Shown one piece after another: positions 2,011 through 51,198 of a stretch of DNA of 64,000 bases. Location: positions 434,001 to 498,000 of the forward strand of contig NZ_CP100461.1 in the NCBI RefSeq assembly GCF_024228675.1, in the 5' to 3' direction. The position numbers and the translations under genes were made by a program. The notes under the pieces are model-generated. The model saw only the letters and a program-made list of their open reading frames with translations, was not told where the DNA came from and made no database searches. Numbering within the stretch: position 1 is the stretch's first letter; each line of letters opens with the position of its first letter. The stretch is from Salinigranum marinum (GTDB lineage Archaea; Halobacteriota; Halobacteria; Halobacteriales; Haloferacaceae).

Positions 2011-2807
2011 ACCTCGACACCTCCGAAGTACGCCTCGCGGACCGCCTCGTCGGCCGCGATCTCCTCCGGCGTCCCCTCGGCGAGCACCGCGCCGCGGTGG
2101 AGGACGGTCACCCGGTCGGAGACACGCATCACCAGATCGATGTCGTGTTCGATGAGCACGAGCGTCCGGTCGGCGAGCACGTCGTCGATCAGCTCCATGG
2201 TCGCCCGGGTCTCGTCGGCGCTCATGCCGGCGGTGGGTTCGTCGAGCAGGACGACCTCGGGGTCGGTCGCGAGGACAATCGCGATCTCGAGGCGGCGGCG
2301 GTCGCCGTACGCGAGCGCGTCGGCCACCTCGCCCGCGCGGTCGGCGAGCCCCGAGCGCTCGAGCACGCGCGCCGTGTGGTCCGCGACGTCGTCGAACGTC
2401 GCGGCCCGGCGGAGGAACGCCTCGCGCGGGCTGAACCCACCCTCCCGGGCGGCCTGGGCGGCGAGGCGGACGTTCTCGTGGACCGTCAGGCCGCCGAAGA
2501 CGTTCGTGAGCTGGAACGACCGGCCGAGCCCGCGGCGGACGCGCTCGTGCGGCGCGAGGTCGGTGACGTCCTGCCCGGCGAGCAGCACCCGCCCCGCCGA
2601 GGGGGCGAGCGCGCCGGTCAGCAGGTTGAACGTCGTCGTCTTGCCGGCCCCGTTCGGCCCGATGAGGCTGCGGAACTCCCCCGGAGCGACGGCGAGATCG
2701 ACGTCGTCGACGGCGACGAGGTTGCCGAAGCGCTTCGTCAGCCCGACCGTGCGGAGGACCGGGCCGTCCGGGTCGCCATCGATCGATCGGGACCGCGGCT
2801 CACTCAT
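2007..2807 (-). CDS. livG: branched-chain/aromatic acid ABC transporter ATP-binding protein LivG
   Basis: A 266-residue ABC ATPase with Walker A GPNGAGKTT at 50-58 and Walker B VVLLDEPTAGMSADE. The signature helix reads LAYGDRRRLEIA, the LivG form that lacks the usual LSGGQ. The C-terminal extension with GTPEEIAADEAVREAYFGG is the LivG tail. It overlaps livF by 4 bases and the fused permease gene by 8 bases. It would form the heterodimeric motor with LivF at the inner face of the membrane. Confidence 0.93.
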   Translation of the reverse strand: MSEPRSRSIDGDPDGPVLRTVGLTKRFGNLVAVDDVDLAVAPGEFRSLIGPNGAGKTTTFNLLTGALAPSAGRVLLAGQDVTDLAPHERVRRGLGRSFQLTNVFGGLTVHENVRLAAQAAREGGFSPREAFLRRAATFDDVADHTARVLERSGLADRAGEVADALAYGDRRRLEIAIVLATDPEVVLLDEPTAGMSADETRATMELIDDVLADRTLVLIEHDIDLVMRVSDRVTVLHRGAVLAEGTPEEIAADEAVREAYFGGVEV

Positions 2808-4767
2808 GCTCGGCCTCCCCGTCGGTCACGGTCCCGGGCTCCCGACGCCACGACTGCACGGTCGGGTGATCGAGGACGGTCCGCGGGAGCGACACCAGCC
2901 CCCGCGGCACGAACACCACGAACAGCACGAAGAGGACCCCGATCACCAGCCGCCACTGCTCGACGTACGACGACAGCACGTCCTCGCTGGCGACGAACAC
3001 GCCGGCTCCGAGCATCGGCCCGTAGAGCGTCCCCATCCCGCCGAGGACCGTCATCACGATCACCTCGCCCGAGTTGATCCAGTGGAGGAAGGTCGGGGCG
3101 ACGTAGCCGTTGTTCGTCGCGAACAGCCCGCCCGCGAGTCCCGCGAGGCCGCCGCTCACCACGAACGCCCGGCGCTTGTAGACGGTGACGTCGTAGCCGA
3201 CGAACGACGCGCGCTGTTCGGACTCGCGGATCGCCTGGAGGACGGAGCCAAAGGGCGCGCGGATGAGCCGCCGCGCAAGCAGGTACGAGCCGACGACGAC
3301 CGCGAGGAGGACATAGTAGTGGACGACGCCGCCGTCGACGACGACGGGCCCGAGCACGACCTCGACCGTCGAGAGGTCGACCCCGACGCCGGCGATCCCG
3401 TAGACCCCGTCGACGCCGAAGAGCCCGTCGGAGCCGCCGGTGAACTCGAACTTGAAGACGGCGTTGTAGAACAGTTCGGCGAACGCGAGGGTGATCATGG
3501 CGAAGAAGACGCCCGAGACGCGGATGGAGAGGAAGCCGATCCCCCACGCGAGGGCGGCACACACCCCGACGGCCACGACGAGCGCCAGCGGGATCGACGA
3601 CGAGACGTGCAAAAGCGCCAACACGGCGGCGTACGCCCCGGCGCCGTAAAACAGGGTGTGGCCCAGCGACACCAGCCCCGCGTACCCCAACACGAGATCG
3701 AGGCTGAGTGCGAACAGCGCCCAGATCAGGATGTCCTCCAGCAGCGTCACGGTGTAGGCGGCCCCCGTCAGTTCGGCGAACAGGGGGACGAGCGCGAGCG
3801 CGCCCACGGCGGCGGCCCCGAGCTTCGTCCGGGTCTCCGCCGAGAGCACCCCGCCCTTTGCCCCGTGGAGCAACGCGCCGCCGTGGCCGCCCTCGTGAGC
3901 GGTCCCGAACAGCCCGGTTGGGCGGACGACCAGGACGCCGATCATGAGGAGGAACACCACGAGCCCCTCTAAAAACGGCGTGTACGTCCGCGCGAGCGTC
4001 TGGACGAGGCCGACGAACAGACCGCCGACGACCGCCCCGCGGAACGAACCCAGTCCGCCGAGGACGACGATGACGAACGCGGGGATGATGACTGAGGAGC
4101 CCATCGTGGGGCTGACGTTCTGGAACGCGCCGAGGACGATCCCCCCGACGCCGGCGAGCGCGGCGCCGAAGCCGAACGTGAGCGTGTAGTATCTGTCGAT
4201 GTCGATCCCGAGGGTCCGGACCATCTCGCGGTCCTGCGACCCCGCGCGGACGATCATGCCGAACCGCGTCCTGTTCAACAGGAGCCACGTCCCGAGGGCG
4301 AGCAGCGCGCCGAAGCAGATCATCGCGTAGCTGTACAGCGAGTATCTGAAGCCGAACAGCGCGACCGGCCGGTCGAGCAGCGCGGGGATGGCGAACGGCT
4401 GGGCCGACTTGCCCCACACCGCCGTGATGAGGTCGTTGATGATGAGGACGAGCCCGAAGGTGAGGAGGATGTGGTACAGCGGGTCGCGGTCGTACAGCCG
4501 CTTGACGGTGAGCCGCTCGATCCCCATGCCGACGACGCCGACGAGCAGGGGTGCGACGACGAGTGCGACCCAAAAGCCCGCGCCGCCGAGCGGGCCCGCG
4601 ATGGCGAACGCGAGGTACGCCCCTAACGCGAACAGTTCGCCGTGGGCGAAGTTGATGACGTCCATGACGCCGAAGATGATCGACAGGCCCGCCGCCAGGA
4701 GGACGTACACCATCCCGACAGTGAGCCCGTTGAGCACCTGCTCCGCGAGCCCCGTGACCACGGACAT
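2800..4767 (-). CDS. fused LivH-LivM permease of a branched-chain/aromatic acid ABC transporter
   Basis: A 655-residue membrane protein combining both HAAT permeases. Residues 1-290 match LivH (NFAHGELFALGAY motif near 39-51; ends with VRPTGLFG). Residues about 320-640 match LivM (LDLVLGYAGLVSLGHTLFYG, then a second permease domain ending FVPRGLVSLP). The linker has a Gly/His-rich stretch. In most organisms LivH and LivM are separate. The two halves should form the full transmembrane pathway in one chain. The gene sits one base after the substrate-binding protein gene and overlaps livG. Confidence 0.92.
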   Translation of the reverse strand: MSVVTGLAEQVLNGLTVGMVYVLLAAGLSIIFGVMDVINFAHGELFALGAYLAFAIAGPLGGAGFWVALVVAPLLVGVVGMGIERLTVKRLYDRDPLYHILLTFGLVLIINDLITAVWGKSAQPFAIPALLDRPVALFGFRYSLYSYAMICFGALLALGTWLLLNRTRFGMIVRAGSQDREMVRTLGIDIDRYYTLTFGFGAALAGVGGIVLGAFQNVSPTMGSSVIIPAFVIVVLGGLGSFRGAVVGGLFVGLVQTLARTYTPFLEGLVVFLLMIGVLVVRPTGLFGTAHEGGHGGALLHGAKGGVLSAETRTKLGAAAVGALALVPLFAELTGAAYTVTLLEDILIWALFALSLDLVLGYAGLVSLGHTLFYGAGAYAAVLALLHVSSSIPLALVVAVGVCAALAWGIGFLSIRVSGVFFAMITLAFAELFYNAVFKFEFTGGSDGLFGVDGVYGIAGVGVDLSTVEVVLGPVVVDGGVVHYYVLLAVVVGSYLLARRLIRAPFGSVLQAIRESEQRASFVGYDVTVYKRRAFVVSGGLAGLAGGLFATNNGYVAPTFLHWINSGEVIVMTVLGGMGTLYGPMLGAGVFVASEDVLSSYVEQWRLVIGVLFVLFVVFVPRGLVSLPRTVLDHPTVQSWRREPGTVTDGEAEHE

Positions 4768-48404: not shown

Positions 48405-49967
48405 CTACTGCGGGCTCATCGCGTACGCGTCGATGCGCTCGTCGCTCCGAGCCTCCCAGGCGACCCGTTCGGAGACGCCGTAGACGCTGAACTGGCGGTT
48501 CAGGAAGATCCACGGTGCCTGGTCGTGTGCGAGCGCGTTCGCCTCCCGTAGCGTGGCCTCGCGCGTGTCCCCCGACTCTTCGGCCGCCTGGCTCAACAGC
48601 GCGTCGAACTCCTCGTTGCTCCAGGAAGTGAGCTGGCCGTCGCTCGTCAACAGCGCGGTCATCACGAGGCCGCCGTCGAACGTCGCCTCGCCCCAGCCGA
48701 TGAGATACCACGGCGGCTTGTCCTCGATGTTGCCCGTGAGGAGCTCGTCGACGAGCGAGCCGAAGTCGCGCTGGCGGACGGACGCAGAGACGTTGGGAAG
48801 TTCGTCGATGAAGCCCGCGACCGCCTGTGCGATCTCGAGGTCTTTCAGGTAGCGACCGACGGGCGTGTTGAGTTCGATCTCCACGCCCGCGTGGCCACTC
48901 TCTTCGACCAGCTGCTCGGCCTGGCCGGGGTCGTACGCGTACGGATCGACGTCGGGGTTGTGCCCGACGAAGCCGTCGAGCGTGGGCTGGCCGGTCGCCG
49001 ATCCGAAGCCGCCGAGGACGTTCTCGACGATGCTGTCGAGGTCGACGGCGTAGTTCATCGCCTGGCGGAACGCCTGCGACGAGAACGGCTCGACGTCGTA
49101 CCGCATCGCGTTGTAGATGACGCGCGTGCTCGGTGCCGAGGCGATGCGTGCGGTGTCGCTGTCGTTGACCCGCTGGACCTCCTGTGGCGGGACGTTCACG
49201 ACCACGTCGGCCTCGCCCTGGAGGAGCTGGTTGACACGGGTGCCGGCCTCGCTCGCGGCGCGGAACGTCAGTTCGGTCACCGCGGCGGTGTCGTCCCAGT
49301 AGTCCTCGTACGGAGTGAACACGACCTCTTCGTCCTCCGTGTACGACGACAGCTGGAACGGGCCGGTGCCGTTCATCTCCTGACCGATCTCGGCCTTCGA
49401 GCGCTCCTCGACCCAGCTCTGCTGCATCACGTCGCAGTAGGTGGCGAACTCGGAGAAGACGATGGGGTTGAGCCCGTCGTTTTCGACCACGACACTCCCG
49501 TCGTCGGCCACCTCGGCACCGGTGACGCCCGCGAGCTGGTCGCTCTGGGGGCTGGCGAAGCCGACGCCCTCTCGGACGATCCGGTTGATCGAGTAGGCGA
49601 CGTCCTCGGGCGCGAGCGCGTCGCCGTTGTGGAAGGTGACGTCCTCGCGGAGCTGGAACCGGACCGTGTTCTCGCCGTCGACCCGTTCGTACCCCGTCGC
49701 GAGTGCCTCGGTGATCGAGCCGTCGGCCGTGCGGGTGAGCACGCCCTCGTACGCGTGGAGCATGACGACGTCCGTCGGCGTCTCGCGGTGGTCGTGGGGG
49801 TCCAGCCCCGAGGGCATGTTCCCCTGGACGATCGTGACGGGGAACTCCTGGGTCGATCCGCCGCCGCCACCACCACTCCCGCTACAGCCGGCGAGGCCCG
49901 CGACGGCCGCCGCCGTCCCGCTGAGTTCGAGAAATCTCCGCCTACCGAGCGTGTCGTCGGAGGTCAT
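48405..49967 (-). CDS. peptide/nickel-type ABC substrate-binding lipoprotein (OppA/DppA family)
   Basis: 520 residues. A twin-arginine motif (RRRFLELSGTAAAVAG, from about residue 9) and lipobox ending at Cys28 (AGLAGC), then a Gly/Ser linker. The SBP_bac_5 fold shows LDPHDHRETPTDVVMLHAYEG, YERVDGENTVRFQLREDVTFHNGD, and LAPEDVAYSINRI. First gene of the unit; TATA-like GTATATATGC 27 bases upstream. Substrate: small peptides or similar compounds. Confidence 0.92.
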   Translation of the reverse strand: MTSDDTLGRRRFLELSGTAAAVAGLAGCSGSGGGGGGSTQEFPVTIVQGNMPSGLDPHDHRETPTDVVMLHAYEGVLTRTADGSITEALATGYERVDGENTVRFQLREDVTFHNGDALAPEDVAYSINRIVREGVGFASPQSDQLAGVTGAEVADDGSVVVENDGLNPIVFSEFATYCDVMQQSWVEERSKAEIGQEMNGTGPFQLSSYTEDEEVVFTPYEDYWDDTAAVTELTFRAASEAGTRVNQLLQGEADVVVNVPPQEVQRVNDSDTARIASAPSTRVIYNAMRYDVEPFSSQAFRQAMNYAVDLDSIVENVLGGFGSATGQPTLDGFVGHNPDVDPYAYDPGQAEQLVEESGHAGVEIELNTPVGRYLKDLEIAQAVAGFIDELPNVSASVRQRDFGSLVDELLTGNIEDKPPWYLIGWGEATFDGGLVMTALLTSDGQLTSWSNEEFDALLSQAAEESGDTREATLREANALAHDQAPWIFLNRQFSVYGVSERVAWEARSDERIDAYAMSPQ

Positions 49968-49990
49968 AGGCCGTCCTTTGCGCAGGACAG

Positions 49991-50000
49991 GTATATATGC
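49991..50000 (-). promoter_or_regulatory. TATA-like promoter of the peptide transporter operon
   Basis: The minus strand reads GCATATATAC, centred about 28 bases before the substrate-binding protein ATG at 49967. Implies a leaderless five-gene mRNA. Confidence 0.6.
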
Positions 50001-50010
50001 TATGTGTGAA

Positions 50011-50286
50011 CTACCCCACCCTGCTCGCGCTGACGCGCTCGCTGAGGGTGGGACTTCCTGCTTCCACGACGCGCTTTGCAGATACGGGTGTATCCACAGG
50101 GAGCGCAGTCACCACAGGCGCTGCTTCGGAGTGTCCCACTCCTAGTTGCTCGACGCGAAAGTTCCATGGGACAGCGCACGCTTCTTGTCGCGTTTGAACG
50201 CCATCCGTGTCTGTCACCTTCGTAAGAAGCGAGTCGCTCCGCATGGAACGACGAGCGAGTCGAAGCTGACAGGTCGGAACGTCCAT
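50011..50286 (-). mobile_element. 3' remnant of an IS1341-type tnpB gene with the element right end
   Basis: A frame on the minus strand ends with LGVGHSEAAPVVTALPVDTP and SAKRVVEAGSPTL, which I recognise as the C-terminal tail of haloarchaeal TnpB proteins of IS1341-type elements. The RuvC-like and zinc-finger parts are missing, so this is a truncated remnant of about 90 residues. The last codons overlap an inverted repeat (CCCACCCT at 50015-50022, AGGGTGGG at 50045-50052), where TnpB elements carry their right end and omega-RNA. No tnpA is seen. Confidence 0.6.
50015..50052. repeat. inverted repeat at the tnpB remnant 3' end (right-end / omega-RNA hairpin)
   Basis: An 8-bp perfect stem CCCACCCT/AGGGTGGG with a 22-base GC-rich centre that covers the last codons of the tnpB remnant. 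Confidence 0.5.
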
Positions 50287-50382
50287 CTTGACCGGTTATC
50301 CGGCGGTCGTGAGTATAACTGCTTGCGTGGGCCTGTGGATCAGCAATAGAACGTGCAAGACAGATGATGACGGCGCTGTAAT

Positions 50383-50440
50383 CCCACCCTACTGTGTTCT
50401 TTGTCTGCTGGCGCGGACTGCGGTACTCGTTGAGGGTGGG
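50383..50440. repeat. second CCCACCCT/AGGGTGGG inverted repeat
   Basis: The same 8-bp arms recur 370 bases further right, here 42 bases apart, with TGAGGGTGGG shared as a 10-base block with the first. It may be the right end of a second decayed element of the same family. Confidence 0.4.
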
Positions 50441-50513
50441 CCTAGCGCCTATCTCAAGCTAAACATCGTAAGAACTCGGTACCGCCGTTCCCCCCCACCC
50501 CTGCGCTGGCGTA

Positions 50514-50523
50514 CGTTTAAGTA
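50514..50523 (+). promoter_or_regulatory. TATA-like promoter of the RNase HI gene
   Basis: CGTTTAAGTA is centred about 27 bases before the ATG at 50545. Confidence 0.55.
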
Positions 50524-50544
50524 GCCCGCTTGCCAAAGCCGAGT

Positions 50545-51198
50545 ATGGCCGTTCACGGCCGTCAGACGCTCCGGGACCTGTTCGACGACTCCCCGACGCC
50601 CCACATCGCGCACCCGCCGCGCACCCACCACCGTCACTTCTACGTCGCCACCGACGGCTCTTACCGACCCGACGGCGGCGGCCTCGGTGCCGTCATCGAG
50701 GCGCGCGATGGCACACGCGTCGCCCGCATCGCGCTCTCGGACACACCCCCCGACAACAACGTCGCCGAGTACCGTGCGCTCCACCTGGGTCTCGATGTCC
50801 TCGCCGCCCGTGCGCCGCGCGACGCGCTCGTCGGCGTCCTCGTCGACCACGACGACCTCGCGGGGAACGTCAACAGCGCCGTGTTGGAGACCCAACAGCC
50901 CGGCTGGCGACCCGGTGGGGACCCGTCGGTCCCGGCCGGGAGCGAACACCACTGGCGCGGCATCCAGGCGCGTATCGCCGGCTTCGGCGAACTCCGCGCC
51001 GCCCGAATCGACTCGCGGGACAACCCCGCCCACCCGCTCGCGAACGCGCCCGCGGAGTACGCGCACGTCAACCGACAGCCCGACCGGTGTGTCCTGCCGA
51101 GCGCGGCGAACGCCGGCACCGAGGCCACGGACCCGCAGTTCCCACCGCCGTCGCGGTTCGACCGCCCCGACCGCGTCGGCAGCGCCGGGAGCGACTGA
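50545..51198 (+). CDS. rnhA: RNase HI family protein
   Basis: 217 residues. The RNase H fold starts at HFYVATDGSYRPDGGGLGAV, with the first catalytic Asp near residue 38, and continues with NNVAEYRALHLGLDVLA, holding the catalytic Glu. A third acidic region is DHDDLAGNVN, and a final Asp sits in DSRDNPAHPLANAPAEYA. It is of the archaeal/reverse-transcriptase-like RNase HI type, which removes RNA from RNA-DNA hybrids. A 60-residue C-terminal extension (NRQPDRCVLPSA...) is specific to haloarchaea. ATG chosen for the leaderless promoter spacing. Confidence 0.85.
   Translation: MAVHGRQTLRDLFDDSPTPHIAHPPRTHHRHFYVATDGSYRPDGGGLGAVIEARDGTRVARIALSDTPPDNNVAEYRALHLGLDVLAARAPRDALVGVLVDHDDLAGNVNSAVLETQQPGWRPGGDPSVPAGSEHHWRGIQARIAGFGELRAARIDSRDNPAHPLANAPAEYAHVNRQPDRCVLPSAANAGTEATDPQFPPPSRFDRPDRVGSAGSD

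Follow-up and report, generated by a model that had tools for sequence, protein, structure and literature searches.

The locus at 50011-50440 of the window (the whole 64,000-nucleotide stretch of Salinigranum marinum DNA analysed here) carries a TnpB-like tail and two similar hairpins, which raises the question of whether these are debris of transposition or parts of a single unit. The initial annotation had read them as the C-terminal tail, all that is left, of an IS1341-type TnpB, with two decayed right ends in a row that suggested nested or repeated insertion. Both inverted repeats were confirmed at the positions it gave: in the first, CCCACCCT (50015-50022) pairs with AGGGTGGG (50045-50052), and in the second the partner of CCCACCCT (50383-50390) is the 10-base block TGAGGGTGGG (50431-50440), also present at 50043-50052. 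The derivation of the tail from TnpB was borne out by two approaches. Using the full TnpB of L011, a locus of the same genome, as a tblastn query, we found that the C-terminus of the 91-aa ORF matches aa 350-411 (E 1e-15); furthermore, the tail DNA is ∼85 % identical to four tnpB 3' ends of the genome and 81 % identical to a fifth. As the ORF has no Pfam match, a Pfam scan alone would have missed the similarity to TnpB that had been proposed for checking by profile search. The overlap of the tail's 3' end with the right end and the omega-RNA region likewise held.

Ends and parts of the element

The second hairpin turned out to belong to a different kind of end from the one first assumed. The region that contains it, 50326-50462 (−), matches positions 1745-1871 of L014, directly upstream of an open tnpA (1920-2324) and an open tnpB (2326-3627), and therefore corresponds to the left end of this complete tnpA- and tnpB-bearing element, not to a second right end. 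Nested or tandem right ends are thereby ruled out, and a left end and a right end enclosing a unit of similar size is the standard architecture of the relatives. At the opposite side, the tnpB copies L011 and L012 are alike up to GTAGTTCAC and then diverge, the equivalent position in the window being 50006. The hairpins are part of ends that dozens of related elements have in common, with TTTAG-C on the left and GTAGTTCAC on the right; a chance occurrence of 8-bp repeats was therefore rejected.

Judged by these comparisons, 50006-50462 (−) is one 457-bp protein-less element of IS200/IS605 type and of the PATE kind, with two different ends (Table 1). No ORF of TnpA length is present in the 457 bp, which besides the 91-aa frame hold overlapping short ORFs alone, and aa 350-411 are all that is left of TnpB; the intact tnpB or tnpA of an autonomous IS1341/IS605 element is thus missing. 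What is present instead corresponds to a PATE: no transposase gene, IS605-related palindromes near the termini, neither terminal inverted repeats nor target duplication, and mobility. A MITE was excluded, as the two ends differ (TTAGC... and ...GTTCAC) and there is no target duplication. The TTTAG at the left junction is presumably the target, a role that we carry over from the IS200/IS605 model.

Table 1. Features of the protein-less element and its right flank (window positions)
Feature	Position	Strand	Evidence
Whole protein-less element	50006..50462	−	Left end TTAG to right end GTAGTTCAC; complete elements and ∼46 distinct related insertions
TTTAG, left junction, probable target/TAM side	50459..50463	−	TTAG in 45/48, preceding T in 34/48 left junctions
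Left-end imperfect hairpin (second inverted repeat)	50383..50440	−	Like the hairpin at the left ends of L011, L012 and L014
TATA-like box TTATA, centre 27 nt upstream of inferred RNA start	50314..50318	−	Aligned boxes in relatives
Structured RNA region, ∼284 nt, inferred start AAGATGG	50006..50289	−	80/83 pairs; z −3.84 for 50006-50237
5' structured domain, absent beside tnpB	50145..50289	−	Covariation in alignment A5
Omega-RNA scaffold: tnpB 3'-end homology and right-end hairpin	50006..50144	−	Model R1 match, 3.3e-48
Right-end hairpin (first inverted repeat)	50015..50052	−	Inverted repeat and conserved fold
Inferred guide, first 16 nt of flank past right end	49990..50005	−	Position only
91-aa ORF, TnpB-like C-terminal half, probably no protein gene	50011..50286	−	Open in 12/23 window-type copies

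Relatives, junctions and mobility

In order to place the element among its relatives, we used a covariance model of the omega-RNA scaffold built from 8 sequences (R1), which matched at least 132 of the 148 genomes of the host's family. We inspected 157 matches (45 loci at hand and 112 fetched, with the 8 weakest of the window's own genome, L071-L078, excluded); 119 of them have more than 330 of the 414 TnpB residues upstream, and many of the remaining 38 are truncated at the end of a contig. The genome itself holds three further protein-less elements, namely L061 and L063 (380 and 376 bp, 91 % identical) and the shorter L064. Many genomes have near-full-length copies of this 380-bp short type, and 14 of 71 matching plasmid records contain at least 80 % of it. 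The window element represents a second, window type, with complete relatives in Haladaptatus halobius, Halorubrum yunnanense, Halorubrum sp. 48-1-W and haloarchaeal MAGs, the named haloarchaeal ones (e.g. the first two) keeping the order left end, promoter, RNA and right end.

A 23-nt motif of the 5' domain identified 62 loci in the genome collection, all of them haloarchaeal or named only to archaeal level. The left-end motif is present in 53, hairpin 1 in 57, the right-end motif in 54 and all three in 45, with 10 loci cut by edges; the figure of 54 is up to 4 too high, as the loose pattern matched inside hairpin 1 of L300, L338, L342 and L355 (true right ends are present in L300 and L342). 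Within 600 nt upstream and 500 nt downstream of the 62 loci, tblastn detected TnpB only as C-terminal pieces, in 13 cases. Models of the two 5' domains (R2 and R3) matched 40 and 42 of 391 haloarchaeal genomes, covering 26 of 86 genera each (E ≤ 1e-6, with rough E-values), and the models of the two subfamilies detect each other's members. Of the 119 near-full-length tnpB loci, L118 alone has a match to the 5' domain, of the short type, and there a second, protein-less unit stands in tandem past the tnpB right end. This unit (L234, at G006:C80) has no left end and begins 4 nt past the right end of the tnpB element. A weak, partial antisense match to the 5' domain was seen in L172. Nothing was found in phage records, nor in viral contigs, which were searched with one motif. 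Elsewhere, L093, L146, L162 and L163 have the omega-RNA scaffold and right end alone, with no tnpB and no left end in the 420 nt upstream. A different omega-RNA subfamily, with the right end GCCTCGGGGCTTGACCCCGAGGCGATTCAC, is found in L007, L025, L027 and L031; L062, which is the same place as L007, has no tnpB.

The insertion in the window is lineage-specific, since the syntenic gap between a solute-binding-protein gene and an RNase-H-like gene is present and empty in all three other genomes of the genus. Among 48 junction rows, whose left-end counts are given in Table 1, the right end is GTAGTTCAC in 43 and no flank is common to both sides, arguing against target duplication. The 16 nt past the right end are distinct in 46 of the 48 rows, the two repeats being places listed twice; as such, they differ at every distinct insertion, and each insertion would carry a guide of its own. 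The geometry fits an omega-RNA whose guide would be taken from the flank past the right end. Two window-type copies in Haladaptatus halobius are 100 % identical over 385 nt, yet lie on two plasmids with different flanks, and in Halorubrum G109 the short-type copies are nearly identical, again with different flanks. Near-identical copies at different sites, with different guides, indicate that the family is mobile despite encoding no protein. For two further copies in the window's genome we found no clean joined empty site, and the exact target is thus inferred. As the window type has a single copy in this genome, that copy need not be active. In the window (49990-50010), the right end lies ∼8 bp upstream of a TATATA box, the probable promoter of the solute-binding-protein gene (start 49967). 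As this box falls within the inferred guide, the insertion may alter expression of that gene.

RNA structure and coding potential

Window-type copies share one order of parts: TATA-like box, AAGATGG, a 145-nt 5' domain, hairpin 1 (GGAGUG/CACUCC), scaffold and right-end hairpin, with the scaffold opened by the 5' hairpin GGAGTGGGACACTCC. Boxes resembling TTATA or TTTATAT are aligned at equal spacing in most window-type relatives. We derived a consensus structure of 83 pairs from 10 relatives, leaving out the window itself and dropping the rearranged L318. The window forms 80 of these pairs, whilst its 33 substitutions placed at random leave 71.6 ± 2.2, and none of 2000 null draws reached 80. 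The alifold energy was −113.0, vs −62.2 ± 4.8 for column shuffles (z −10.6). In the A5 alignment, which covers the 5' domain and hairpin 1 in 11 sequences (the partly deleted L353 being excluded), 97.4 % of cells are paired, compared with 33-43 % when the structures are slid along. Two-sided changes occur in 16 of 52 pairs (5.5 ± 1.7 in shuffles, 0/500 as high), although these are not independent events, as several copies come from one genome. Across 26 copies of the short type, the RNA part (141-380) is conserved at 0.78-0.96 and the left-end hairpin blocks (21-40 and 61-80) at 0.83, whereas the spacer (81-120) reaches only 0.58-0.63. The conserved fold spans the tnpB 3' end and the right end, as expected of an omega-RNA. 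Rfam had no match at E ≤ 1 within 49500-51000 and none at gathering score in L011, L013, L014, L015, L220 or L293; known sotRNA families therefore do not cover this group. In some copies extra perfect hairpins are inserted in the RNA loops. Furthermore, in many copies (L223, L293 and others) an inverted repeat TACTACC ... GGTAGTA surrounds the start, possibly as an operator or an additional hairpin.

Twelve of 23 window-type copies (the window's own and 11 of 22 relatives) and 17 of 26 short-type copies keep an open frame between the ATG and the stop at the right end. This frame begins right after the inferred start, so that a leaderless small protein fused to the TnpB tail (91 aa in the window, 77 aa in the short type) might be the product. 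The remaining copies, however, have stops, frameshifts or ACG/ATA starts. In the window type, the pN/pS of this frame is 0.99 for the 5' domain, where other frames are as low or lower, and 0.79 for the scaffold. In the short type the scaffold reaches 1.08 and the 5' part 0.61, against 0.76 and 0.79 when the latter is read in the other frames. We read these values and the open-frame counts as conservation of RNA rather than of protein; a leader peptide is possible, whilst the 91-aa ORF is probably not a protein gene, and a small protein as the product of the element strikes us as very improbable.

Two further explanations leave the RNA without a role. The element might be a plain relic, an IS605-type element that has lost its interior, with its ends and tail left and its RNA unused. 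In keeping with this, the window type is a single copy in its genome, three of the 83 predicted pairs are broken, and there are other tnpB-less tails that have no left end. Against it, many genera carry the unit of left end, 5' domain, scaffold and right end, which also exists in identical copies at separate sites, and the substitutions in the window avoid breaking pairs; we thus consider a relic unlikely. Alternatively, the folding might serve recognition and movement of single-stranded DNA by TnpA, the RNA being irrelevant. Recognition of near-terminal hairpins by TnpA is established for IS608 and ISDra2. Because such hairpins work in single-stranded DNA, some of the structure could indeed have its role there. 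PATEs, for their part, are mobile without genes (PMC3119063). Nevertheless, the constrained 5' domain and scaffold are internal and reach up to ∼280 nt away from the right end; variation in many of the pairs passes through G-U, which would be A-C on the other strand, and the TATA-like box is retained at a fixed spacing. A DNA-only function is accordingly less probable still than a relic, if not as remote as the small protein.

A candidate guide-RNA element and its possible partners

By comparison, then, we have shown one element with two different ends, a mobile family spanning several genera, and conservation of structure at the level of RNA. The initial view of a decayed tail alone was correct in that the tail derives from TnpB, but the RNA part is conserved across genera, its structure is kept and a conserved promoter-like block lies upstream; the suggestion that an omega-RNA could outlast the loss of its nuclease was right. 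The locus is, in our view, likely to be a non-autonomous element whose only contribution is a guide RNA and which depends on other elements for TnpA, and probably for TnpB. With similar confidence we propose that it retains three things, namely the left end, the right end and a structured omega-RNA gene that has a promoter-like box of its own and an additional domain at the 5' end. Rather than dead scrap, it resembles a mobile element relying on the enzymes of others. Mechanistically, the Y1 transposase TnpA of full elements would move the protein-less element in trans. Driven by the TATA-like box, transcription of its RNA would run past the right end into flanking DNA, so that each insertion would receive a new guide. 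The TnpB of another element would load this RNA and cut re-emptied copies of the insertion site, whose repair would restore the element. The outcome would be RNA-guided retention with no nuclease of its own, in line with the IS605 retention model of the TnpB literature.

Potential partners are at hand in the window's genome, with open tnpA and tnpB in L014 and an open tnpB in L011. Among 18 carrier genomes, 17 have a Y1 TnpA and 17 a TnpB match, a co-occurrence that does not amount to enrichment because it was established in carriers only. Some observations count against this reading. In the carrier G138 (95 % complete) our searches detected neither TnpA nor TnpB, and the block of the left end thought able to pair with the target is CTAG in the window and CTAA in most other copies.

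Cas12 descends from TnpB, whose guide RNA is regarded as the partner of its own nuclease gene; standalone omega-RNAs have been discussed for IscB. To our knowledge, omega-RNAs were still undiscovered in 2011. In that year haloarchaeal PATEs were defined (Dyall-Smith et al., 2011; PMC3119063), and in the sections of that paper on which we draw, those of Haloquadratum, such as HqIRS71, resemble the window element in having no transposase gene, IS605-like near-terminal palindromes, mobility and no target duplication. HqIRS71, whose likeness to the window family is drawn from its description alone, also has C-terminal coding remnants. The same sections describe these PATEs as non-coding, however, and propose neither a promoter nor a guide RNA nor any conserved RNA domain. 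The omega-RNAs (sotRNAs) that accompany IS200/IS605 tnpB genes in haloarchaea are arranged like the scaffold of the window family, with the RNA at the 3' end of tnpB and a hairpin at the right end. In the part of PMC12558985 considered they overlap tnpB, whereas the window element has no tnpB and an extra 5' domain. A PATE-like element of Halanaerobium hydrogeniformans combines a left-end hairpin, a tnpB remnant (there the last 58 nt) and a whole right end; it differs in being a single copy in a bacterium, and the part of PMC7290912 considered reports no RNA analysis and no 5' domain. The complete elements L011, L012 and L014 share the left end, right end and omega-RNA scaffold with the window element, but carry tnpB (L014 also tnpA) and have no 5' RNA domain. 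PATEs and omega-RNAs are each known, and within the literature partially covered here we found none that links the two; the portions of PMC11061315 and PMC11870625 considered make no mention of standalone or non-autonomous guides.

More generally, guide-RNA-only transposons may be widespread in haloarchaea and may recruit foreign TnpB (and TnpA) so as to be retained, or to home, in an RNA-guided manner; we put this generalization forward tentatively, at slightly less than even odds. Equally tentatively, such an element would make a single product, a guide RNA that has its own promoter and bears an additional RNA domain at its 5' end. If so, the transposon would be a parasite of a parasite, and its 5' domain a new RNA module, either standing in for what the processing of tnpB mRNA supplies or favouring or controlling loading on foreign TnpB. 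Were a mobile family to retain the guide RNA while losing the nuclease, it would demonstrate that RNA-guided retention is open to exploitation in trans, would account for the persistence of core-bearing PATEs in haloarchaea, and would offer a natural two-part TnpB/guide system, testable in Haloferax.

Two minor features of related loci were also observed. In L011, L012 and L019 a small ORF (MHTVKRTTITLREDQHEWIQ...), which we take to encode a ribbon-helix-helix protein, precedes tnpB, between it and the left end. Finally, at L015 2217-2277 (G000:C1 ∼330717-330777) two right ends face each other ∼9 bp apart (...GTTGAC / GTGAAC...), a convergent double insertion.
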